A DNA stretch of 64,000 bases, from assembly GCA_916048095.2 (NCBI GenBank), contig OU696573.1, forward strand, positions 7,775,806 through 7,839,805, read 5' to 3'. Shown here in pieces: positions 175 through 14,362 of this stretch. The notes under the pieces are model-generated. The model saw only the letters and a list, made by a program, of their open reading frames with translations, made no database searches and was not told the DNA's origin. Every line of letters starts with the position of its first letter. Position 1 is the stretch's first letter. The DNA is from Sacculina carcini (taxonomy: Eukaryota; Arthropoda; Thecostraca; Sacculinidae). The position numbers and the translations under genes are program-made.

Positions 175-211
175 TGGTGACCCCGACGTGATTTGAACAC
201 GCAACCTTCTG
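175..211 (+). promoter_or_regulatory. Primer-binding site complementary to tRNA-Trp
   Basis: This 37-nt stretch is, from memory of the conserved animal tRNA-Trp, an exact complement of the 3' CCA, acceptor strand, T arm, variable loop and four bases of the 3' anticodon stem. It begins TGGTGACCCC one base after the LTR. tRNA-Trp priming is known for the CsRn1/Kabuki gypsy clade, which fits the polymerase downstream. The match is much longer than the usual 8-18 nt and stops near the anticodon loop. Confidence 0.85.
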
Positions 212-3537: not shown

Positions 3538-3850
3538 TGTGGCGTTGTTGTCGAGTGGCGTGCGGTGTGACGTCATAGCGGTTCACTTGAGTCGACTGGT
3601 GCGAGGTATGACGTCGCACGTTACTGCGCGCTGATTGGCCGCGACTTGAGCCTAGTGCCGGAGGCGTGTATCAGCTGGCGTGTGTGAAGCTGGTTTTGCG
3701 AGCGGTCGAGCGTCATTCGGTTGGTGGCCTGTGCGTTGTAAGCATCGTTTCCGTGTGTTCGAGAGATATTCGCTGTGTGGACGTATTCTCGTCGTGTGCG
3801 CGGGTTTTTCCTGCGCGAGAGGTAAGAGGGCTTTGCCCGATTACGTTACA
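3538..3850 (+). repeat. 5' LTR of element 2
   Basis: Begins TGTGGCG and ends TTACA; the copy is at 8320-8632. The LTR should contain promoter and polyadenylation signals. It includes two TGACGTCA-like motifs (tgacgtcat near 3569 and tgacgtcgc near 3610), possible CREB/ATF-type sites by resemblance only. Confidence 0.95.
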
Positions 3851-3862
3851 AGCTATTTCGGC
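3851..3862 (+). promoter_or_regulatory. Atypical primer-binding site complementary to the 5' end of tRNA-Phe
   Basis: The 12 bases AGCTATTTCGGC directly abut the LTR. They contain no TGG complement of a 3' CCA. They are the reverse complement of GCCGAAATAGCT, the first 12 nt of conserved animal tRNA-Phe. The same 12 bases follow the unrelated LTR of element 3 at 10069-10080, while the neighbouring bases differ. A primer pairing here would have to end at tRNA position 12. Confidence 0.65.
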
Positions 3863-3865
3863 TTT

Positions 3866-4918
3866 ATGGCTGAGGCCGTTGGCGGGGGCAAACGCGAGTT
3901 TGTCGAAGGGGATTCCGGAAGCGAATCCGATGACTTCGGTCAGGAGGGTCAGAGACCCGAGCAGCGGGCCGCAGGACCCGTGGTAGATGTTGGCCAGTTG
4001 GCCAACATCTTAATGCAGGCCCGAGGGCCGATCCTTGACAGGATAGGGCGGGCTCTACCGCGTTTCGGTGGTGACGTCACCCTTGACGTCACTGAGTGGC
4101 TGGCCGACTTTGAGCGGCTATGCCGTGTCCAGCAGGTCGACCCTTGCGAAATGGTCGACCATATGCTGGATGGGAGCGAGCGCCGGCTTTACCGGCGCAT
4201 GCTCGTGGGCGACGCCTCACAGTGGGCCGTGGTGAAAGCCACGCTGGTCGCCGAGTTTGGCGTGCCTCGCCAAGAGGCGTGGAGGCGCTTCTCGACTCGT
4301 CAGCTTCGATCTGGCGAGTCAGTGGACGCCTTTGTGGACGACCTAGAGCGTCTAGGTCGCCGTGTAGGGTTAACACCCGAGAGCTTGGCGTTCCGCGTCA
4401 AATTTTATGAGGGCCTACCCGACTCAATCTATGAGTGGGCTATGGCGAGAGAGGGGGCGTATACCTCCGAGTTCGACAGCGTGCTGTCGGCGGTGCGCGC
4501 CAGAATTGGTGCGCGTAGGGCTGCTGCAGCTAGAAACCGCCCATCTGGGGTGGTGGCTGCATCTAGGCAGCGAGTCAGCTACGCCCAAGTAGCGAGCAGC
4601 TCGAGGGACCGCTCTCCTGGTCCTCAAGCGTCGGACGAGCGAGACGGCTCTGTGTCTCGGTGGGCGGGCCGTCCGGAGCGCTCTTCTGCGCGCCGGACGC
4701 TCCGCTGCTACCGATGTGGCGGCGACCATCTGGTCCGCGAGTGCCCGGGAGCGCAATGCTACCGGTGTGGCAAGCACGGGCATTTCGCTCGTGATTGCGA
4801 GGAGCCGGCGTCGACGTCGACGTCACGCCGCTCGCGAGCTCGGACGAGCTCGCATTTTCATGTGGAGGGCGCAGCACGGGGCGCAGCGTCCTCCGACATG
4901 GAAGTCGACCGCAATTAA
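3866..4918 (+). CDS. gag: Gag polyprotein of element 2
   Basis: A 350-residue structural protein starting at the first ATG after the LTR and primer site; the same frame is open further upstream, into the LTR. The N-part is acidic and disordered. A capsid-like helical region spans roughly 50-220 (conserved-looking stretch WLADFERLCR). Two zinc knuckles close the protein: CX2CX3HX4C near 282-294 (unusual H spacing) and CX2CX4HX4C near 298-311. It would package element RNA into cytoplasmic particles. Pol overlaps its end in the -1 frame, so Gag-Pol is probably made by -1 frameshifting; I see no classical slippery heptamer. The N-terminus could also lie further upstream. Confidence 0.85.
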   Translation: MAEAVGGGKREFVEGDSGSESDDFGQEGQRPEQRAAGPVVDVGQLANILMQARGPILDRIGRALPRFGGDVTLDVTEWLADFERLCRVQQVDPCEMVDHMLDGSERRLYRRMLVGDASQWAVVKATLVAEFGVPRQEAWRRFSTRQLRSGESVDAFVDDLERLGRRVGLTPESLAFRVKFYEGLPDSIYEWAMAREGAYTSEFDSVLSAVRARIGARRAAAARNRPSGVVAASRQRVSYAQVASSSRDRSPGPQASDERDGSVSRWAGRPERSSARRTLRCYRCGGDHLVRECPGAQCYRCGKHGHFARDCEEPASTSTSRRSRARTSSHFHVEGAARGAASSDMEVDRN

Positions 4919-7900
4919 GCGGCGGCCCCTGTAAAGGGGCGACGGTGAGTCCCTGCTCTGCGCGTGGACTCATCAGCGGAGCACATTTGGTGCGTCGGGC
5001 CCGCCGGGCGATTCGAGGGACGGCCGGTGTATTGACTTCGCGTCGTATGCCGGTCGTTGAAGCTGTTCTCAACGGTCGTTGCTCCCGGTGTCTGGTTGAC
5101 ACGGGAAGTGAGTGCACAATTGTTAGTGCACGGGTGGTGGCGGGTTCACTTCCCCGTCGGGGACGACCGTTGATTACAGCGGATGGTAGGACTTCTCATG
5201 AGACGAAGTCCTGTGACGTAGTAATAGGGCTGCAGGGACACTGTTTTAGAGTTCCCGGGCTCGTAGTCAAGGGATTAGAAAACCTTGGGGTGGAGTGCCT
5301 CCTGGGCAACGATGTTATCGACCATATGGGAGGCGTGACAGTGAAAAGGGGTGTTGACTCTATATACACCGTTGAGTGGGGGAAACCTTACCCCGAGGGG
5401 TGCTGTCGTGCACCGGCGCGTAAGAGTGTGTCTAATAAATCGACGAAGTGTGTGAGGTTTATGTTGGCAGGTTCCACGGATAGTCCGCAGCCGCTGGAAG
5501 TTGTCGACAAGGACTTCGTAGCGTCATTCGCTGAGGGCCGATGGACGGTGAGCTGGCGGTGGTCTGACAAAGAGCCGGACCAGCTACAGAACAGCGTGGC
5601 GGAGTACAGATGTACGAGAGCTCCCGGAGTGAGCGAGAGGTACAATGCCGAGATCCGGAGCTGGATCGAGAAAGGCTGGTTAATCACATGGCACGGCCCA
5701 GTAAAGGGGATCATCCCGCTGTTGGCCGTCGTACAGCCGACGAAAGACAAAGTTCGTCCTGTTATGGATTACCGTGAGCTGAACGGCTTTGTCGAGTGTC
5801 ACACAGGAGATGACGGTGTGTCAGTGTGTGCTGACAAGATCAGAGAGTGGAGGCAATGGCAGGGGGAGATCAAGGTAGTTGATCTCAAGTCGGCGTACCT
5901 GCAGATTCACGTGAGCCGAGATCTGTGGAAGTATCAGGTCGTGAGGTATAATGGTGTGCATTATGCGTTGACGCGGCTGGGCTTCGGCCTGTCATGTGCA
6001 CCAAGAATAATGACGCTGATTCTGCGAAAGGTCCTGTCATTGGACGAGAAGGTGCGAAAGGCGACAGATCATTATGTCGACGATATCATCGTGAGGACGT
6101 CCGATGTGAGCGTGCAGCAGCTTCGGGAGCATCTGCGAAGGTATGGCTTTGAGACTAAGGAGCCGGAGGGCCTAGATGGGGGTCGATTATTGGGAATTGC
6201 TCTGAGGAAGGGACCCGATGGGTGGTTGAATATGTCGAGAGGGACAGCTCTTCGTGACGCTGCACCCGAATTGACAGGGCTGACCAAGCGTGGGTTGTTC
6301 TCCGTATGTGGTCGTTTAGTCGGTCATTACCCCGTTGCCGGGTGGTTACGCCCCCATTGCAGTTTTTTGAAACGGTTGGGGTGTGGCGGGTCGTGGGATA
6401 ACCCGGTGGAGAATGTTGTGTGTGTGCTTGTGTCTGAGCTGTTGCAGCGTGTTCAGAAGGCGGACCCGGTAAGGGGTCGATGGGACGTGAACGCAGCTGG
6501 AGACGTCACTGTATCGACTGACGCGAGCACGTTGGCGCTTGGCGTGGTGGTCGAGGTGGACGGCTGCATCGTTGAGGATGCTACTTGGCTCCGTAAGAAG
6601 ACCGACGTTCTACACATTAATGTGTCCGAACTGGAGGCAGTCGGTCGTGGCATCAATATGGCGATTTCGTGGGGGTTCAAGACGTTTACCGTCGCGACAG
6701 ACTCGAGGACAGTGCTTAGTTGGATGGACAGCACTGTCGAGGGGCGCAACCGTGTCCGCACTAAAGGTTCTGCCGAGATGCTGGTGAAGCGCCGACTGGC
6801 GGTGATTAAGGAGACGATCGCCGAGCATGGCCTGACAGTTTCTCTCCGGTTTGTCACGACTGTGGAGAATAAAGCTGATCAGATGACCAGGGTGGCCAAG
6901 AAGTGGCTTGTTCATCGTGACGCTGGTGAGGAGGAGGTGGCAATATCAGCAGCTATTGCTACGAAGAAGAGCATTAAGGACACCGTTTGGGCGGCTCATC
7001 TGCCCCATCATTTAGGTGTCGAGAGGACGCTGTACCTGGGTCAACAATTGCGGAGTGATTTGACGAGAGCCCATGTGAAGGCGGAGTTAGCTGGATGCGA
7101 GGCTTGTCAACGTATCGATCCAGCGGTGAGAGAGGAGAATCTCGTAGGTCAGGGTAGTCTGGCCGTGGACAGGGACTGGTATCGAGTGGCAGCGGACGTC
7201 ACTCATTACGATGCCGGCGTTTACCTGTCGATGGTGGATTGTGGTCCATCACGTCTTGCCGTATGGCGCAGATTGCCGAATGAGACGGCGTTGTGCATTA
7301 TAGCTCAGCTGCGGCAGATTGTGATTGAGCGTGGGCCGTTTGAGGAGCTGTTACTGGACAACTCTACGGCGTTCCGGTCGGCGGCGATGGAGCAGTTCGC
7401 CGACGAGTGGTGCATTTCTTTGCGATTCCGAGCCGCATACGCCCCGGGCGGTAACGGGATCGTGGAGCGAAATCACCGCACGATCAAAAGGATCGCAGCG
7501 AGGGGACATATTTCCCCGGAGGAGGCGACGTTCTGGTACAACGTTACGCCGCGCAAAGAGACTCAGGTGAGCACTATTCCCTCGAGGTGTATTTTCAGAT
7601 ACGAGTGGCGTCTTCCATTTGAGACCGGCCGCAGGGACGCTGATGACCAGACAGCAGCGTTTGCCGTTGGTGACGAGGTGTGGGTGAAACCGCCGATCCC
7701 GTCATGTACAACGCCGTGGACCCTCGGGAAGGTGACCAGGGTCGTCTCACAGCACGTTGTGTGCGTAGATGGCATGCCGCGCCATGTGCGCGACCTGCGC
7801 AAGCGTCGCTGTGCCGGCCATAGTGGAGCCACAGACGAGACCGGCACTCATGGCGACGTGGAACCGACCAGCGGCGGTTGGGATGTGGATGCGACCGGCA

Positions 7901-8262
7901 ATCGCGGAGATGTGGAGCCACCCGGTGGAGCCACCCGGTGTAGCTTGGACCTGAGCGGTGATGGCGGACGGGACGAGGCGGCCGATAGTCCCGGCGGTGA
8001 CAGAACACCTGACAGCCTGCCACCTGAGCGACTGGCTACTGGCGAGGGCGTGGATGCGGACCGTGTGTCTGTGGAGCAGGAACCTGGTGAGCCCTCAGAG
8101 GGCGTGAGTGTACATACTGCTCGAGAGAATGTCGGAGAGGGCGTCGCGGCTGAGAGAGTCGAGGATGAGGCTGCAGTCGAGCAGCCGAGGCGGTCAACGA
8201 GGAGACGTCGACCGCCGGCATGGTTAAACGAGTACGTGTGTCTATCCGATGATGAAGTTTAA
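4795..8262 (+). CDS. pol: Pol polyprotein of element 2 (PR-RT-RH-IN)
   Basis: An intact open frame of 1,155 codons overlapping gag by 124 bases, offset by -1. The first ATG is at 5047 (residue 85), just before the protease, so translation is by frameshift or internal start. Aspartic protease has DTGS at about 102-105; RT has LDYRELN-like VMDYRELN near 322 and catalytic YVDD at 427-430; RNase H starts near 573 (TDAS). Integrase has an HHCC finger near 735-770, the second catalytic Asp in LLLDNSTAF near 852 and Glu in GIVERNHRT near 890. The last 200 residues are acidic, low-complexity, with GDVEP-type repeats, and end in an Arg-rich block. Order PR-RT-RH-IN is gypsy-like. All catalytic motifs appear intact. 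Confidence 0.9.
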   Translation: MRGAGVDVDVTPLASSDELAFSCGGRSTGRSVLRHGSRPQLSGGPCKGATVSPCSARGLISGAHLVRRARRAIRGTAGVLTSRRMPVVEAVLNGRCSRCLVDTGSECTIVSARVVAGSLPRRGRPLITADGRTSHETKSCDVVIGLQGHCFRVPGLVVKGLENLGVECLLGNDVIDHMGGVTVKRGVDSIYTVEWGKPYPEGCCRAPARKSVSNKSTKCVRFMLAGSTDSPQPLEVVDKDFVASFAEGRWTVSWRWSDKEPDQLQNSVAEYRCTRAPGVSERYNAEIRSWIEKGWLITWHGPVKGIIPLLAVVQPTKDKVRPVMDYRELNGFVECHTGDDGVSVCADKIREWRQWQGEIKVVDLKSAYLQIHVSRDLWKYQVVRYNGVHYALTRLGFGLSCAPRIMTLILRKVLSLDEKVRKATDHYVDDIIVRTSDVSVQQLREHLRRYGFETKEPEGLDGGRLLGIALRKGPDGWLNMSRGTALRDAAPELTGLTKRGLFSVCGRLVGHYPVAGWLRPHCSFLKRLGCGGSWDNPVENVVCVLVSELLQRVQKADPVRGRWDVNAAGDVTVSTDASTLALGVVVEVDGCIVEDATWLRKKTDVLHINVSELEAVGRGINMAISWGFKTFTVATDSRTVLSWMDSTVEGRNRVRTKGSAEMLVKRRLAVIKETIAEHGLTVSLRFVTTVENKADQMTRVAKKWLVHRDAGEEEVAISAAIATKKSIKDTVWAAHLPHHLGVERTLYLGQQLRSDLTRAHVKAELAGCEACQRIDPAVREENLVGQGSLAVDRDWYRVAADVTHYDAGVYLSMVDCGPSRLAVWRRLPNETALCIIAQLRQIVIERGPFEELLLDNSTAFRSAAMEQFADEWCISLRFRAAYAPGGNGIVERNHRTIKRIAARGHISPEEATFWYNVTPRKETQVSTIPSRCIFRYEWRLPFETGRRDADDQTAAFAVGDEVWVKPPIPSCTTPWTLGKVTRVVSQHVVCVDGMPRHVRDLRKRRCAGHSGATDETGTHGDVEPTSGGWDVDATGNRGDVEPPGGATRCSLDLSGDGGRDEAADSPGGDRTPDSLPPERLATGEGVDADRVSVEQEPGEPSEGVSVHTARENVGEGVAAERVEDEAAVEQPRRSTRRRRPPAWLNEYVCLSDDEV

Positions 8263-8308
8263 CCGTGCGTGTTTGCAAGCGTGTTTGTTGTGAGCTTTCA
8301 GGTGAAAA

Positions 8309-8319
8309 GCTGGGGGAGA
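8309..8319 (+). promoter_or_regulatory. Polypurine tract of element 2
   Basis: The run gctgggggaga immediately precedes the 3' LTR at 8320, as expected for plus-strand priming. The short spacer from 8263 holds no other feature. Confidence 0.7.
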
Positions 8320-8632
8320 TGTGGCGTTGTTGTCGAGTGGCGTGCGGTGTGACGTCATAGCGGTTCACTTGAGTCGACTGGTGCGAGGTATGACGTCGCA
8401 CGTTACTGCGCGCTGATTGGCCGCGACTTGAGCCTAGTGCCGGAGGCGTGTATCAGCTGGCGTGTGTGAAGCTGGTTTTGCGAGCGGTCGAGCGTCATTC
8501 GGTTGGTGGCCTGTGCGTTGTAAGCATCGTTGCCGTGTGTTCGAGAGATATTCGCTGTGTGGACGTATTCTCGTCGTGTGCGCGGGTTTTTCCTGCGCGA
8601 GAGGTAAGAGGGCTTTGCCCGATTACGTTACA
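8320..8632 (+). repeat. 3' LTR of element 2
   Basis: Same 313 bp as 3538-3850 with one mismatch, followed by the target duplicate ttaat at 8633-8637. Confidence 0.95.
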
Positions 8633-8637
8633 TTAAT

Positions 8638-9213
8638 TATACAATTGATTGCCACATGTTGTACTATTTTACATTGCTATATATGTACGCTTCAAATCCT
8701 GGTCGCTGCGCTACGTGTAATATTTATATGTGTGTAAACTTGTGCATTTACTATGTGAACATTATGCCCTGCATTAGACCGTTTCAAGTTAAGCACCATT
8801 ATGGGGTATATTTCGATGCCTTGCTTCGTCAAGTCAATCGAACTTTGTGAGGTGAATACAGTGATACGTGTTACAGTGAAAGTGTTGTGCTATCCCTCTT
8901 CTTTCGTTGGGTAATAGGTGGTAGTTTACGCTGGTAGCTCCGGTATTACCAGTATTGCATTCCACGGACCCGTCTCTTCCTTCTTCCTTGCCTCTCTCCC
9001 CTTGGCTCAGGCCTCTCACCCACTGGAGGTGAGAGTGCTCGCTCCGGGTGCAGTAAGATCCCGGAGCACACCGGTCCTGATTGAGCCCAGGCCTAAACAG
9101 GCTAGCAGAGGCGTGGGCTGCCCTGCTTCAAGAAGGGAAATTGCCGGGTCGCGTGTCGGTGAACACAGGCCACATTTGGCCCAATAGAATTGGACCCAAA
9201 TCCAAATTCTACA
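8638..9213 (+). repeat. 3' LTR of element 1, right part
   Basis: The continuation of the LTR interrupted at 3537. Its last 173 bases match the window start (1-173) with 3 differences and it ends TTCTACA. Most of the promoter and terminator region of this LTR should be here. Confidence 0.9.
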
Positions 9214-9239
9214 CAGTATTATGAAGCAATGACGCTGTA

Positions 9240-9502
9240 CCCGGAGCCGTAGCAACCGCCCTCCGTACCCCCGGCCGGGGGGCCCCGAATGTTGAGGCGC
9301 CCCCGTTGCTTTACGTTTGATATTATAATTTATCATATTTATTAAGTACAGCATTTACCTTTTTGCTCAAATGTTTTCATCTAAGCTTATATTATGTGAT
9401 TATGTCTAATAAATAAATTCATTATTTGGTCCTATATTTATAATTGGGCCCCAAGTGATGCTTCGGGGGGGGGGGGGGAATAATTCCTCGCAACGGCTCT
9501 GG
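9240..9502 (+). mobile_element. MITE-like family B, copy 1
   Basis: A 263-bp unit flanked by a perfect 5-bp duplication ctgta (9235-9239 and 9503-9507). Its ends are imperfect inverted repeats (CCCGGAGCCGTAGCAAC at the left, the complement of GTTGCGA-GGCTCTGG at the right). It has no coding capacity. A second copy of almost equal length (265 bp) is at 27181-27445, also with a 5-bp duplication. It contains a 14-G run at 9465-9478. The superfamily is not clear. Confidence 0.7.
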
Positions 9503-9538
9503 CTGTACCATACAATATACACACCCAATCCACACATA

Positions 9539-9612
9539 TACGAGGGAGAGTCAAGAATTATACGCACTCTTGTTTTTTCTATGTATTTACACAAAAGCCG
9601 GACATAAACAAG
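9539..9612 (-). mobile_element. Mariner 3' end with terminal repeat (left of element 3)
   Basis: Read on the minus strand, this is the 3' end of the mariner whose transposase lies at 14372-14905; element 3 separates the two parts. The outer end, at a TA, starts cgagggagagtcaag, a mariner-like terminal repeat by resemblance. The stretch is otherwise the short untranslated tail after the transposase stop. Confidence 0.6.
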
Positions 9613-10068
9613 TGTGGTTAGTGCGTGTATTAATTTTTGTATATTTGTATATGTGTGCAAGAGTTTGTAAGCGTGCGCGTGCACTATTGGACTTGTTATT
9701 GGGAACGTTACTGTAGGTGCCTCGAATGTCATGCGCGTGCAACTGAACATGTGTGTGTATGCGCGCGTGTTTGTATTTTCGTGTGTGCGTGAGTGACAGT
9801 TGATTGCGTCAGCGAGAATGTGACGAGTCAGTGGGAGTCTTGGTGTTGCGTTGATTTAGTGTGCGGTGTTTTGTGCGGCGATAGTTGTTTCAGTGCTTTT
9901 CGCGCGTGTGTGTGTGTCTAGTGGTTTTACGTGCGAGTGTGAGAGGATCTTGTGTGCCGTATTCTTCTCCGTGTTTTTTTTGCTGGCGTCGTCTGAACTA
10001 TTGTGCGGCTTTATTTCCAGTTTCATATCATCGATATAATTCGCATTAAATACATCGTTCACATTACA
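9613..10068 (+). repeat. 5' LTR of element 3
   Basis: 456 bp, TGTGGTTAG at the start and CACATTACA at the end, rich in GTGTGCG runs. Its copy is at 13909-14362. It shares only its last few bases with the LTR of element 2. Confidence 0.9.
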
Positions 10069-10080
10069 AGCTATTTCGGC
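10069..10080 (+). promoter_or_regulatory. tRNA-Phe 5'-end-complementary primer site of element 3
   Basis: The same AGCTATTTCGGC that follows the LTR of element 2, again directly at the LTR border and about 9 nt before the gag ATG. Sequence on both sides differs between the two elements, so the 12-mer seems to be selected. Confidence 0.65.
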
Positions 10081-10088
10081 ACTTAGAT

Positions 10089-10865
10089 ATGGCGAATCTG
10101 AAGCTGCATGACATTGTACGGCCGTTTGACGGGAGCCAGGATGTCGTGGAATGGATCTACAAGTTTGATAGAGTGGCAGAACTACGGAAGATCGACGCCC
10201 TCGAGACCGTCGTGCCTCTGTTCCTCGATGGCCCGGCGTACGCAGTGCTCTGTGAAATGGATGAGGTCAAAAAGTGTGTGTATTCGGAGATCAAAAGATC
10301 ACTGCTGGACGCTTTCGCTACAGACAGGTTCTCGGCATACGAAATGTTCACCGCGTGCAAGTGGAAGGGAGAGCCAGCCGATGTTTACATGGCGAGCCTG
10401 AGGCGACTTGCTAAACTTGCTAATATTGAGTGTGACAATGTTCTCAAGAACGCTTTTGTGGTGGGATTGCCGCGTGAGGTCTCACGAGGATTGAGAACCA
10501 TGCCGAATTTGACAACAATTGCTTTGGCGTCGGTCGTCGATCGTGCACGCATCCTTTTGTCAGAGATCGGCGAGGGTAGTACTGCGATGGGGGCACCAAA
10601 CACGCAACACTCTCGCAATGAGAAAATACAATATTCGACGCAGAGAAGGTGTTTCAATTGTGGTGGACCTCATCTCGCAAGGTACTGCAATGCGCGGAGC
10701 AGCGGTGGTTCATTGCAAAATGTGCGTCGCCAATTTGAATGTTTCGGATGCGGGGGACCGCACCTAAGGCGAAACTGTCCTCGCGAACAAGAAAGAACAC
10801 AACAGACGGGAAACGACGAGGGGAGATCTGGTGCGCCAGCAGCTCTCCCACTGACCAGTCAGTAA
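10089..10865 (+). CDS. gag: Gag of element 3
   Basis: 258 residues, intact, starting at an ATG just after the primer site. The N-terminal 150 residues resemble a capsid domain (helical; EWIYKFDRVAELRKI corresponds to EWLADFERL in element 2). Two zinc knuckles, CFNCGGPHLARYC near 188-200 and CFGCGGPHLRRNC near 218-230, both have the short CX2CX3HX4C spacing. The end overlaps pol in the -1 frame by 127 nt, the same arrangement as in element 2. It could still make particles although pol is dead. Confidence 0.8.
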   Translation: MANLKLHDIVRPFDGSQDVVEWIYKFDRVAELRKIDALETVVPLFLDGPAYAVLCEMDEVKKCVYSEIKRSLLDAFATDRFSAYEMFTACKWKGEPADVYMASLRRLAKLANIECDNVLKNAFVVGLPREVSRGLRTMPNLTTIALASVVDRARILLSEIGEGSTAMGAPNTQHSRNEKIQYSTQRRCFNCGGPHLARYCNARSSGGSLQNVRRQFECFGCGGPHLRRNCPREQERTQQTGNDEGRSGAPAALPLTSQ

Positions 10866-13800
10866 TGGCGCTTCCGCGTGTACCAGCGGTAGTCAATGGT
10901 AGAAATGTGCATGCTGTGATGGACACGGGCTGCACAATGTCGATCGTGTCTCGATCGATTGCTGCAAATGCGCGTGGCAGCTGCAGCGTGACTACCGTCG
11001 ATGGTCGTAGAGTGTCGTGTGCTGGTACGGACAGGGTGCGAGTGGCTGTAGGTGGCGTGGAACTCTGGTTGCCTGTGATAGTGGCTAACGATCTATTGGG
11101 CGAGGTTGAAGTGATTCTTGGCATGGACGTCGTTGCGAGGCTCAGGGGCGTATACGTGGACGAGCGTGGTGTAGTATTGGGGCCTAGAGAATGTTCTGTG
11201 CCTAATGGCACTCCGGTGTGCAGTGTGATTGCAGGTACTGTTCCGAGAACAGCGAAAACTGAGGTGTGTCCGTCGGATGAACTGAAGATAGATGACTGTG
11301 ATTTTGAGGCTAGATTCGATGGTGACTCGTGGACAGTGAAGTGGAAATGGTGCGACGGGGCCCCGGTGCTCAGAAACGTTGTCGGTAGTTACAGCATTGT
11401 AAGGAAGCCCGAGTTGAAGGATAGATTTGACGAATAGATTCGGAGATGGATATCACAGCGCAGGTTGATACCTTGTGGAATGACCGGGGGCATACTTCCG
11501 TTGATGGCCGTTGATCAACCGAATAAGGAAAAGGTGAGGCCGGTGATTGACTATCGCGAACTCAATGAGTACGTTGAGAGTCACAGTGGGCTCGACGCTC
11601 CGGTGTGTTAAGAGACATTGCGCGGCTGGCGCAGGTGGCCGGGCCCGCTGAAATTGGTCGACTTGAAGACGTATTATCTGCAGATCAAAATTGATGAAAC
11701 TTTATAGCAGTACCAGCAGTTTAATGGGGACAGGTACTGTCTAACGAGACTGGGATTCGGTCTTAGTTGTGCACCCCGGGTGATGAAGAAGATTTTAAGG
11801 AAGGTATTGAGCATGAACGAACGAATCCAGTCAGGAACGAGCTCGTATATAGATGCTATTCTGGTAAACGAGAGTGTTGTGATCGCCGCCGATGTCATCA
11901 ATCATTTGAAAAAGTACGGTTTGGAGGCGAAGGTACCTGAAGACATGGAAAATGGTCGAACACTTGGACTGAATCTTCGAGTAGACAGAGGTGTTTTGGT
12001 TTTCAGCAGAGCGAATGAACTTCCGGATGATGTAGAAGATGGAACGACCAAGAGACAACTGTTTTCATTGTGCGGTAGACTAGTTGGGCACTATCCTGTG
12101 GCTGGGTGGTTGAGGGTTGCCGCTAGTTTTGTGAAAAGATCGACACAAAATATTGATTGGGATGAAAGCGTGAGCTGTGAGACTTTGGTAATGACACGAT
12201 AAATGCTCAAGAAAGGTCTGTCGAATGATCCAGTGCGTGGTAGATGGTATGTACCTGACAAGCTGAAAGGAACCGTCTGGTGTGATGCTAGCAGTCTTGC
12301 TCTAGGAGTCATTATTGAGGTGTACAGCGAAGTAGCAGAAGACTCGTCGTGGCTGCGAAAATCAGGTGATGCACATCACATCAACGTTGTCGAGATGGAC
12401 GTCGTGTTGAGAGGAGTCAACCTAGCGGTGAAATGGGGTATTCAGCAGATCGAGGTGAAAACGGATTCCTCCACGGTGCTTGGATGGTTGAAATCGGTGC
12501 TAAACGGCGAGAGCCGGATGAAGAGCAGAAGTGCAGCTGAAATGTTGATCAAACGCAGGCTTGGCGTGTTGAGTGATCTGGCTGATGAACTCGGTCTGAG
12601 AATATCAGCATCTTACGTTAGGTCAGAACATAACAAGGCGGATGCACTCACCAGGGTGCCGAGGTCGTGGCTACGGATATATGAGGCAAATAATGAGACG
12701 GGTCTTATGATGGTGGAAGAGTTACATGGTCTGCATCATTTTGGTGTCGACAGAACCTTGGTGCTGAGTAGAATGGTAGATCCCAAAGTGACCAAGAAAA
12801 AAACGGAGGACTGTGTGAAAAGATGTTTGCGTTGTCAGTCGGTGGATCCAGCGCCAGTAAGACACCCTCCTGGCGAAATTAGTGTGGAAAATAATTGGAG
12901 TCGCTTGTCGGTGGATGCTACAGAGTACAAGGGCCAGTGCTATGTGACTATTGTGGATCCCGGCCCATGTCGCTTTGCGCTATGGAAAAAGGCGCGCTCC
13001 GATAACGCCGACGACATTGTGAGGATCCTGAACGACGTGTTTCTCGAAAGAGGACCTCCGGATGAACTTTTGCTGGACAACAGTGCCGCGTTCCGATCGT
13101 CTGTACTGGCAGAGCTGTGTGACAAGTGGGGTGACATCAGAAGGTATCGAGCAGCTTATCGACCTTCGGGAAACGGCATCGTAGAACGTCATCATCGCAC
13201 TGTGAAGAGAATGGCGGAACAATGTGGCAAAACTCCACCAGAAATGGTGTTTTGGTACAACATGGCACCAAAGAATATCGCCGACCCTGAGACAGCTCCA
13301 GCACGTGGGCTGTACCGCTATGAGTGGAGACATCCCATGACTCCTGTTGAGGGTTCTCGGAAAGAAGACAGTGGCTGGCGAGTGGGAGATGAGGTGCTGG
13401 TGAAATTACCTGGAGCGAGATGCACCACACATTGGCGCAGAGGTAGAATTACTGGTGTGACATCTTCCAGTAATATTACTTGTATTGTATTGTATGGTAT
13501 TATACTTGTATTGTATTTGTATCGTCTAGTCATTAATAATTAATATGTGTTTGAAAATAATGTGTATTTATTAGTGTATGTATTGTATTCATTACCCGTC
13601 ATGTCTTTAGTTATTATATTGTTGCAACAATGTGCTCATGCCTTTTCTCATGACCTGATAATACACTTATCATCATCATCATCAGTAATATTTATGTCAA
13701 CGGCACAACGCGCCACGTCTTAGACGTGCGGCGCTTGTTTGCGGATGAATCGGACGAAGAGGACGAAAGCGAGGCGCGGCGTACTACTGGTGAAGCGGAG

Positions 13801-13917
13801 ATGCGGAGTTTCGGTGAAGAGCATCAAGACAGACCCGTAAGAGAAAGGCGCAGACCTCGGTGGATGGAAGATTACCACGTCGGAGATGATGAAGACATCA
13901 CGGGGGCGTGTGGTTAG
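10739..13917 (+). pseudogene. Broken pol of element 3
   Basis: Protease (VMDTGCTMSIVS near 10918) and the start of RT are open to a TAG at 11435. Further in-frame stops are TAA 11609, TAG 11705 and TAA 12200. The RT centre reads YIDAI (near 11848) in place of YIDDI, so a catalytic Asp is lost. RNase H (12280 on) and integrase (HHCC near 12727-12840, LLLDNSAAF near 13073, GIVERHHRT near 13178) are open to 13477, where a short insertion breaks the frame. The C-terminal Arg/Asp-rich end resumes at 13693 and stops inside the 3' LTR. It cannot make an active enzyme. Confidence 0.85.
13478..13683 (+). mobile_element. Short LINE-tail-like insertion with (TCA)n end
   Basis: 206 bp inserted in the integrase of element 3, flanked by a 9-bp direct repeat agtaatatt (13469-13477 and 13684-13692). 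It ends in (tca)n next to the second copy, as in target-primed insertion of a truncated LINE or SINE. Removing it with one duplicate puts the two integrase halves back in register. The source family is not recognised. Confidence 0.7.
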
Positions 13918-14362
13918 TGCGTGTATTAATTGTTGTATATTTGTATATGTGTGTAAGTCTTTGTAAGCGTGCGCGTACACTATTGGAATTGTTATTGGGA
14001 ACGTTACTGTAGGTGCCTCTAATGTCATGCGCGTGCAACTGAACGTGTGTGTGTATGCGCACGTGTGCTTGTGTGTTCGTGTGTGCGTGAGTGACAGTTG
14101 ATTGCGTCGGCGAGAATGTGACAAGTCAGTGAGAGTCTTGGTGTTGCGTTGGTTTAGTGTGCGGTGTTTTGTGCGGCGATAGTTGTTTCAGTGCTTTTCG
14201 CGTGTGCGTGTGTCTAGTGGTTTTACGTGCGAGTGTGAGAGGATCTTGTGTGCCGTATTCTTCTCCGTGTTCTTTGCTGGCGTCGTCTGAACTATTGTGC
14301 GGCTTTATTTCCAGTTTCATATCATCGATATAATTCGCATTAAATACATCGTTCACATTACA
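13909..14362 (+). repeat. 3' LTR of element 3
   Basis: 454 bp copy of 9613-10068, ending CACATTACA and followed by gcaag. A weak purine tract (cgggggcg) precedes it. Confidence 0.9.

Follow-up and report, generated by a model that had tools for sequence, protein, structure and literature searches.

In the conventional priming of long terminal repeat (LTR) retrotransposons, the CCA end of a host tRNA pairs with a site of about 18 nucleotides at the LTR border, and in the self-priming of Tf1 the element's own transcript supplies the primer, in the form of its first 11 nucleotides. Here, we consider gypsy-like elements of Sacculina carcini in which the 5' LTR is followed directly by a 12-nucleotide site, AGCTATTTCGGC, that is the complement of the other end of a tRNA, i.e., nucleotides 1−12 of animal tRNA-Phe. 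Two of these (elements 1 and 2) are found in a stretch of 64,000 nucleotides of contig OU696573.1 (assembly GCA_916048095.2, positions 7,775,806 to 7,839,805, forward strand), below referred to as the window, and related elements elsewhere in the genome carry in the same place a site complementary to tRNA-Ile(AAT). From a comparison of sequences, we consider it probable (about 0.86) that minus-strand synthesis is primed by a 12-nucleotide 5'-terminal tRNA fragment, derived from tRNA-Phe in most of the elements examined and from tRNA-Ile(AAT) in others.

Comparison with Known Primers

As in conventional priming, which appears to be used by a third element in the window, a host tRNA would be employed and the site lies at the LTR border; the difference is that 12 nucleotides from the start of the tRNA would pair instead of about 18 at its CCA end. 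The resemblance to Tf1 and sushi consists of a short primer from the 5' end of an RNA, a gypsy-type reverse transcriptase (RT) with RNase H, and a possible cut by the latter, but the primer RNA of Tf1 and sushi is the element's own transcript, while here it would be a tRNA, and the LTRs tested contain no complement. Self-priming is established in a gypsy-type lineage, according to the available part of PMC4600332. Half tRNAs serve as primers of Drosophila copia, Ty5, the plant elements Osser, Bryco, Gymco-II and Bianca, and fungal Helenus. These systems share with the present elements the use of a 5' part of a tRNA, an internal 3' OH and the absence of TGG at the border, but their primers are cut in the anticodon region and pair internally, whereas the sites discussed here complement nucleotides 1−12 and not the anticodon region, i.e., the cut would follow nucleotide 12 and the whole primer would pair. 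In the bivalve terminal-repeat retrotransposons in miniature, there is also similarity to a tRNA (tRNA-Tyr) directly past the LTR that does not involve the tRNA 3' end; it concerns the central part of the tRNA, and the authors offer no clear mechanism (PMC6934838).

PMC6317226 distinguishes whole tRNAs, half tRNAs and self-priming as the three ways in which LTR retrotransposons are primed, and mentions half tRNAs in plants for Ty1/copia only; likewise, PMC10886601 restricts 3'-truncated primers in plants to Ty1/copia. In these sources, half-tRNA priming is reported in Ty1/copia elements or in others that these mobilize (for plants, PMC6317226; also PMC10886601), in contrast to the Ty3/gypsy gene order seen here. 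Among the papers listed in a search by title and start of abstract, with subscription journals and Repbase outside its scope, none described a 5'-terminal 12-nucleotide tRNA primer, and the listed text matches to the two 12-mers and the tRNA starts included no paper on retrotransposon primers as judged by title. The elements would represent a form of tRNA-fragment priming that varies from those known in the place of the cut, which is new, and in the kind of host element, which is new as well.

The Site and Its Use across the Genome

The 12-mer is present as two exact copies in the window (Table 1), both adjoining a 5' LTR, while the 3' LTRs run into flanking DNA without it. A first-pass annotation of the window, made from its sequence, had pointed out the shared 12-mer directly after both 5' LTRs, the lack of a TGG for a tRNA CCA end at either LTR border and the complementarity to nucleotides 1−12 of animal tRNA-Phe, all of which is borne out. 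As far as the available parts of the sources go, human tRNA-Phe begins with GCCGAAATAGCTCAG, such that the complement of its first 12 nucleotides is AGCTATTTCGGC (PMC11706605), and two probes for the tRNA-Phe of Drosophila carry AGCTATTTCGGC at their end (PMC6542536, PMC7038984). It is therefore likely that the host, as an animal, possesses a tRNA-Phe of this kind.

The same annotation had proposed to search the genome for LTRs followed by the 12-mer. In the 264.4 Mb of sequence (43 contigs), AGCTATTTCGGC has 2,021 exact matches, whereas the reversed pattern has 5 and a sequence of uniform base composition would be expected to contain about 31.5; when preceded by ACA it has 1,844 matches as compared to 0 for the control. 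Fifty-one sites were read, i.e., the first 48 in order on contig C1, one further site (L009) and the two in the window. The base at position −2 is C in all 51 and that at −1 is A in 50, which fits an LTR ending in CA, and at positions 13−22, which follow the site, the commonest base never exceeds 57%. The 300 bases upstream of these sites form 18 LTR clusters (blastn). The site is thus confirmed as real, and as a much larger phenomenon than the two window elements; it is abundant, and its sequence is linked to the 5' ends of tRNAs. At one place on C1 (4329847 and 4333871), two LTR-site junctions that are identical over the bases compared lie some 4 kb from each other and point in the same direction, possibly a tandem element.

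A second sample was chosen by gag instead of by site. Genome searches with the first 200 gag residues of each element (match counts in Table 1) yielded matches starting at residues 1−3, of which 120 were selected (100 with a gag like that of element 2, 20 with one like that of element 1), and about 150 bases upstream of each were examined. An exact tRNA-Phe 12-mer was found at 104 of these, a copy with one mismatch at 11, with two mismatches at one, and AGCTAACCGGCC, the tRNA-Ile site discussed below, at four. The first-pass annotation had listed family members lacking the 12-mer as a point that would speak against its proposal; 16 of the 120 do lack the exact site, but 12 of these are within one or two mismatches, four carry the tRNA-Ile site and none carries anything else.

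A Second Site, Complementary to tRNA-Ile(AAT)

The sequence AGCTAACCGGCC, which in related elements occupies the same place as AGCTATTTCGGC, is the exact complement of nucleotides 1−12 of tRNA-Ile(AAT). Two host tRNA-Ile(AAT) genes (L199 and L200, found with ARAGORN) begin with GGCCGGTTAGCTCAG, complementary to AGCTAACCGGCC. The pattern GGCCGGTTAGCTYR has 395 matches in the genome, as compared to 19 for the reversed control. Among 100 matches listed, 97 read ...TTG (equivalent to an LTR end CA), one reads ...TTA and two read ...TCA, the last being the tRNA-Ile(AAT) genes themselves as judged with ARAGORN. All 18 consecutive TTG sites read on C1 show an ...ACA end followed by AGCTAACCGGCC, and they fall into eight LTR groups. 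Complements of 13 other host tRNA starts placed after CA gave no match in 293,585 bases, from loci most of which had been selected because of a Phe or Ile site.

Two 12-mers found in the same place, AGCTATTTCGGC and AGCTAACCGGCC, thus match two tRNAs at identical positions, 1−12. This match and the two host genes support the proposal of the first-pass annotation, in which the primer is a 5' fragment of a tRNA that carries its 3' OH on nucleotide 12. An incidental tRNA match, with the 12-mer kept as a cis element for packaging, dimerization or protein binding, would account for its presence across families with gag only 44−50% identical. We regard this explanation as highly improbable: for a random 12-mer, the chance of complementing the start of any one among about 50 tRNAs is about 3e-6, two distinct 12-mers fit two tRNAs in the same manner, and no conventional primer site is visible at the LTR border.

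Primer Swap and Tandem Sites

The locus L275 bears the Ile site, and with gaps disregarded its LTR does not differ from that of L277 at any of the 121 aligned positions (in the part compared, 5 bases are absent from L277 and it contains 2 additional T). Seven more relatives agree at 115/116 to 119/124 positions, and the bases downstream of the site are also common to the group, apart from scattered single differences. An exact Phe site is found in L277 and in six of these seven, and the seventh (L274) has a Phe site with one mismatch. The replacement of AGCTATTTCGGCCCGAAAA by AGCTAACCGGCCCGAAAA in L275 made the sequence one nucleotide shorter, with the junction at the shared GGCC. L275 thus represents a natural primer swap from a Phe site to an Ile site, and the junction is as would be expected if plus-strand DNA had copied a tRNA-Ile fragment, ended at its nucleotide 1 and annealed via the terminal GGCC.

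The swap could also have arisen by switching of RNA templates with an Ile-type element, for which partners would be common considering the 395 pattern matches noted above. But because both flanks of the site in L275 match the Phe family, two switches within about 20 nucleotides would be required, and the junction fits annealing of the terminal GGCC of a copy; we therefore find template switching unlikely, and favor copying of a tRNA-Ile primer.

Tandem sites are seen in L211, where the Ile site is followed by TGTAACA and then the Phe site, and in L216, which is arranged in the same way with one mismatch in the Phe site. In L201, L208 and L215, which belong to the same LTR group, TGTAACA is kept and the Phe site is gone.

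Self-Priming Considered

A self-primed element, as in Tf1, would use the 5' end of its own transcript, which pairs with the site and is cut into a primer that would likewise be a short RNA 5' end. The first kilobase downstream does contain a match with three mismatches in element 1, and in L002 there is an 8-nucleotide match directly after the site. However, the best match to GCCGAAATAGCT in 10 LTR or 500-base upstream stretches (elements 1 and 2, L001−L008) has four to five mismatches, and shuffled sequences behave alike (means 4.2−4.6); in the LTR of element 2, where the first-pass annotation had seen no such sequence, the best match has four. Furthermore, the site is common to 18 LTR clusters that do not share LTRs, and the swap to Ile altered the site while the aligned LTR positions were unchanged. 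Self-priming, already deemed unlikely in the first-pass annotation, is in our assessment very improbable. In the LTR sequence of the 10 cases, the complementarity between site and transcript 5' end that marks the self-primed Tf1/sushi group was not found. At about position 1501 of L002, the Phe site is followed by CAAATAGCT, which forms a short inverted repeat with it.

Proposed Mechanism

The sequences show the site with its borders, its use throughout the genome, its fit to host tRNA-Ile genes and the swap; from these, we infer that a tRNA fragment of 12 nucleotides exists, that it primes and that it is copied. The 5' end of the tRNA would anneal to the 12-mer adjoining the LTR, where the candidate primers are GCCGAAAUAGCU (tRNA-Phe) and GGCCGGUUAGCU (tRNA-Ile). 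Because the start of the minus strand is set by the LTR border, the 3' OH of the primer should reside at tRNA nucleotide 12; a fragment with a 3' OH after this nucleotide (UAGCU-OH in both tRNAs) would be extended leftwards into the LTR. Pairing would stop here since nucleotide 13 is a C in both tRNAs and the LTR ends in A. Later, plus-strand strong-stop DNA would copy the 12-nucleotide primer and stop at tRNA nucleotide 1, such that the site of a new element would be exactly 12 nucleotides long and rewritten from whichever tRNA had primed. With UAGCU at the end of both fragments, synthesis on a Phe site could be started by a tRNA-Ile fragment, whose sequence would then replace that site.

The cut may be made by the element's own RNase H, which would trim the annealed tRNA, an idea that we put forward tentatively, at slightly less than an even chance. 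It builds on the acidic residues D27, E63, D87 and D146 (numbered as in RNase H alignment A2), which are invariant between elements 1 and 2 and which we take to be catalytic, and on the title of a paper on Tf1, in which self-priming reportedly needs the RNase H of the RT to cleave an RNA duplex.

A related possibility is the uptake of a longer tRNA-Phe or tRNA-Ile, whole or as a 5' half, in which the nucleotides past 12 stay unpaired and are trimmed only at initiation, which concerns the timing of the cut rather than the identity of the priming RNA. Cleavage of an RNA duplex by RNase H, as named in the Tf1 title, would be compatible with this sequence of events. On the other hand, nucleotide 13 is C in both tRNAs while the LTR base at −1 is A in 50 of 51 sites, i.e., pairing ends at nucleotide 12 and a longer primer, if untrimmed, would be at odds with the LTR border. 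As a precedent, Copia and Ty5 employ half tRNAs as primers (PMC10886601, PMC5371799). We judge the uptake of a longer tRNA to be possible, but somewhat doubtful.

Host tRNA-Phe and Sampling

A number of observations weigh against priming by a 12-nucleotide fragment. First, no canonical host tRNA-Phe gene was found in the assembly, parts of which read N and may conceal such genes, by whole-gene, partial or anticodon-arm pattern searches. Neither a search for the whole gene with a typed-in sequence nor one for the 5' half with up to two mismatches returned a gene from the assembly. The start combined with the D loop occurs at one place there, the site L009, which is itself an LTR end; the anticodon combined with the T arm occurs at four, all tRNA-Cys; and the 3' half with up to three mismatches gave just one degenerate copy (L063). 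A search of the assembly for GCCGAAATAGCTC gave 15 places, at none of which ARAGORN calls a tRNA, and with introns allowed there is one tRNA-Val call elsewhere in L104. In an Rfam tRNA search, 63 of 15,013 candidates were scored and 51 matched, with no tRNA-Phe among those inspected. The stretch in L063 (1350−1599) resembles the tRNA-Phe 3' half at 26 of 28 positions and is flanked by inverted repeats of about 35 bases.

Second, commonly described tRNA-derived fragments are 16−35 nucleotides, i.e., longer than 12, in PMC7515703, and PMC7472051 states that in Ty1 and Ty3 no copy of the primer tRNA enters the element, a precedent because of which primer copying cannot be assumed. Third, the samples of Phe and Ile sites come mainly from contig C1, where 47 of the first 48 sites are preceded by CA and one (L001) ends in CT; outside the window, LTR ends were called from the CA end, recurrence and a downstream gag instead of from paired LTRs; and the 120 gag-based places were selected by hand.

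Structure of the Window Elements

Elements 1 and 2 have TG...CA LTRs and short target duplications of the Ty3/gypsy type: 5 bp in element 1 (TTAAT/TTAAT, exact), and 5 bp with one mismatch in element 2 (ACAAG/GCAAG). In both, DUF7047 is followed by an RNase H of the RVT_3 type and then integrase, and the genes are arranged as in Ty3/gypsy (RT, RNase H, integrase) instead of as in copia (integrase before RT), where the RVT_1 and rve domain matches score below the Pfam cut-offs. The RNase H-integrase parts are just 41% identical between elements 1 and 2, such that the shared 12-mer is far better conserved than the proteins. A comparison of the RT piece with the PDB (phmmer) gave only weak matches to HIV-1 RT, and that of the piece after RT gave nothing meaningful.

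Element 1 appears to lie within the 3' LTR of a third, outer gypsy-type element, the contrast case with a conventional site. The latter extends over 37 nucleotides, about twice the usual 18, that match the complement of the 3' end of what we take to be tRNA-Trp; assignment to tRNA-Arg was dropped because tRNA-Trp, in the sequence presumed here, fits better.

Table 1. Positions in the window of the features described, with strand and remarks.
Feature	Position	Strand	Remarks
Outer gypsy-type element, conventional TGG primer site (predicted)	175..211	+	Contrast case
Element 1, 5' LTR, TG...CA	3538..3850	+	313 bp; 99.7% identity with 8320−8632 (1 difference)
Element 1, primer-binding site (predicted)	3851..3862	+	AGCTATTTCGGC, complement of animal tRNA-Phe nucleotides 1−12
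Element 1, gag with CCHC zinc knuckle	3866..4918	+	At least 152 genome matches to first 200 residues
Element 1, pol: RT, DUF7047, RNase H (RVT_3), integrase (rve)	4795..8262	+	
Element 1, purine-rich stretch ahead of 3' LTR, likely polypurine tract	8300..8319	+	Sequence reading
Element 1, 3' LTR	8320..8632	+	Followed by TTAAT, without 12-mer
Element 2, 5' LTR, TG...CA	9613..10068	+	About 95% identity with 13909−14362
Element 2, primer-binding site (predicted)	10069..10080	+	AGCTATTTCGGC
Element 2, gag	10089..10865	+	At least 150 genome matches to first 200 residues, 44−100% identity
Element 2, aspartic protease reading frame	10739..11437	+	
Element 2, frame ahead of RNase H	11708..12202	+	DUF7047 match
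Element 2, RNase H (RVT_3) and integrase	12203..13543	+	41% identity with element 1 over 445 columns
Element 2, 3' LTR	about 13909..14362	+	Followed by GCAAG, without 12-mer

Upstream of element 2 there is a run of 14 G (9465−9478). Farther into the window, an 850-bp direct repeat (45625−46475 and 54518−55366, about 96% alike, 8.9 kb apart) surrounds an RT/RNase H frame on the minus strand (50714−51955) and an integrase frame (49251−50306).

In other organisms, viral contigs contain 33 loci with ACA followed by the 12-mer. None of the 33 has a tblastn match to two pol pieces, and these loci are therefore counted as chance. The integrase alignment (A1) found no relative in viral contigs, and none emerged from contigs of bacteria and archaea with the RNase H alignment (A2).

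Implications

If priming takes place as outlined here, the primer types described would be joined by another, a 12-nucleotide 5' tRNA fragment used by gypsy-like elements, very short 5' tRNA fragments would gain a direct job, and a precise cut after U12 would be implied. As a tentative proposal, held at a bit below even odds, a gypsy-like lineage bearing DUF7047, perhaps found across animals, may constitute a further primer class, in which the first 12 nucleotides of a tRNA are used after cleavage within the D stem, for which the RNase H of the element itself is the probable enzyme, the site is rewritten in each cycle and the tRNA may be switched in one step via the shared 3' UAGCU (as in L275 and L211/L216). 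In practice, the short exact site could help in finding elements missed by tools that expect a tRNA 3' end. The detailed mechanism by which elements change primer was called unknown in 2024, in the available part of PMC10886601, and the swap in L275 suggests how such a change may occur.

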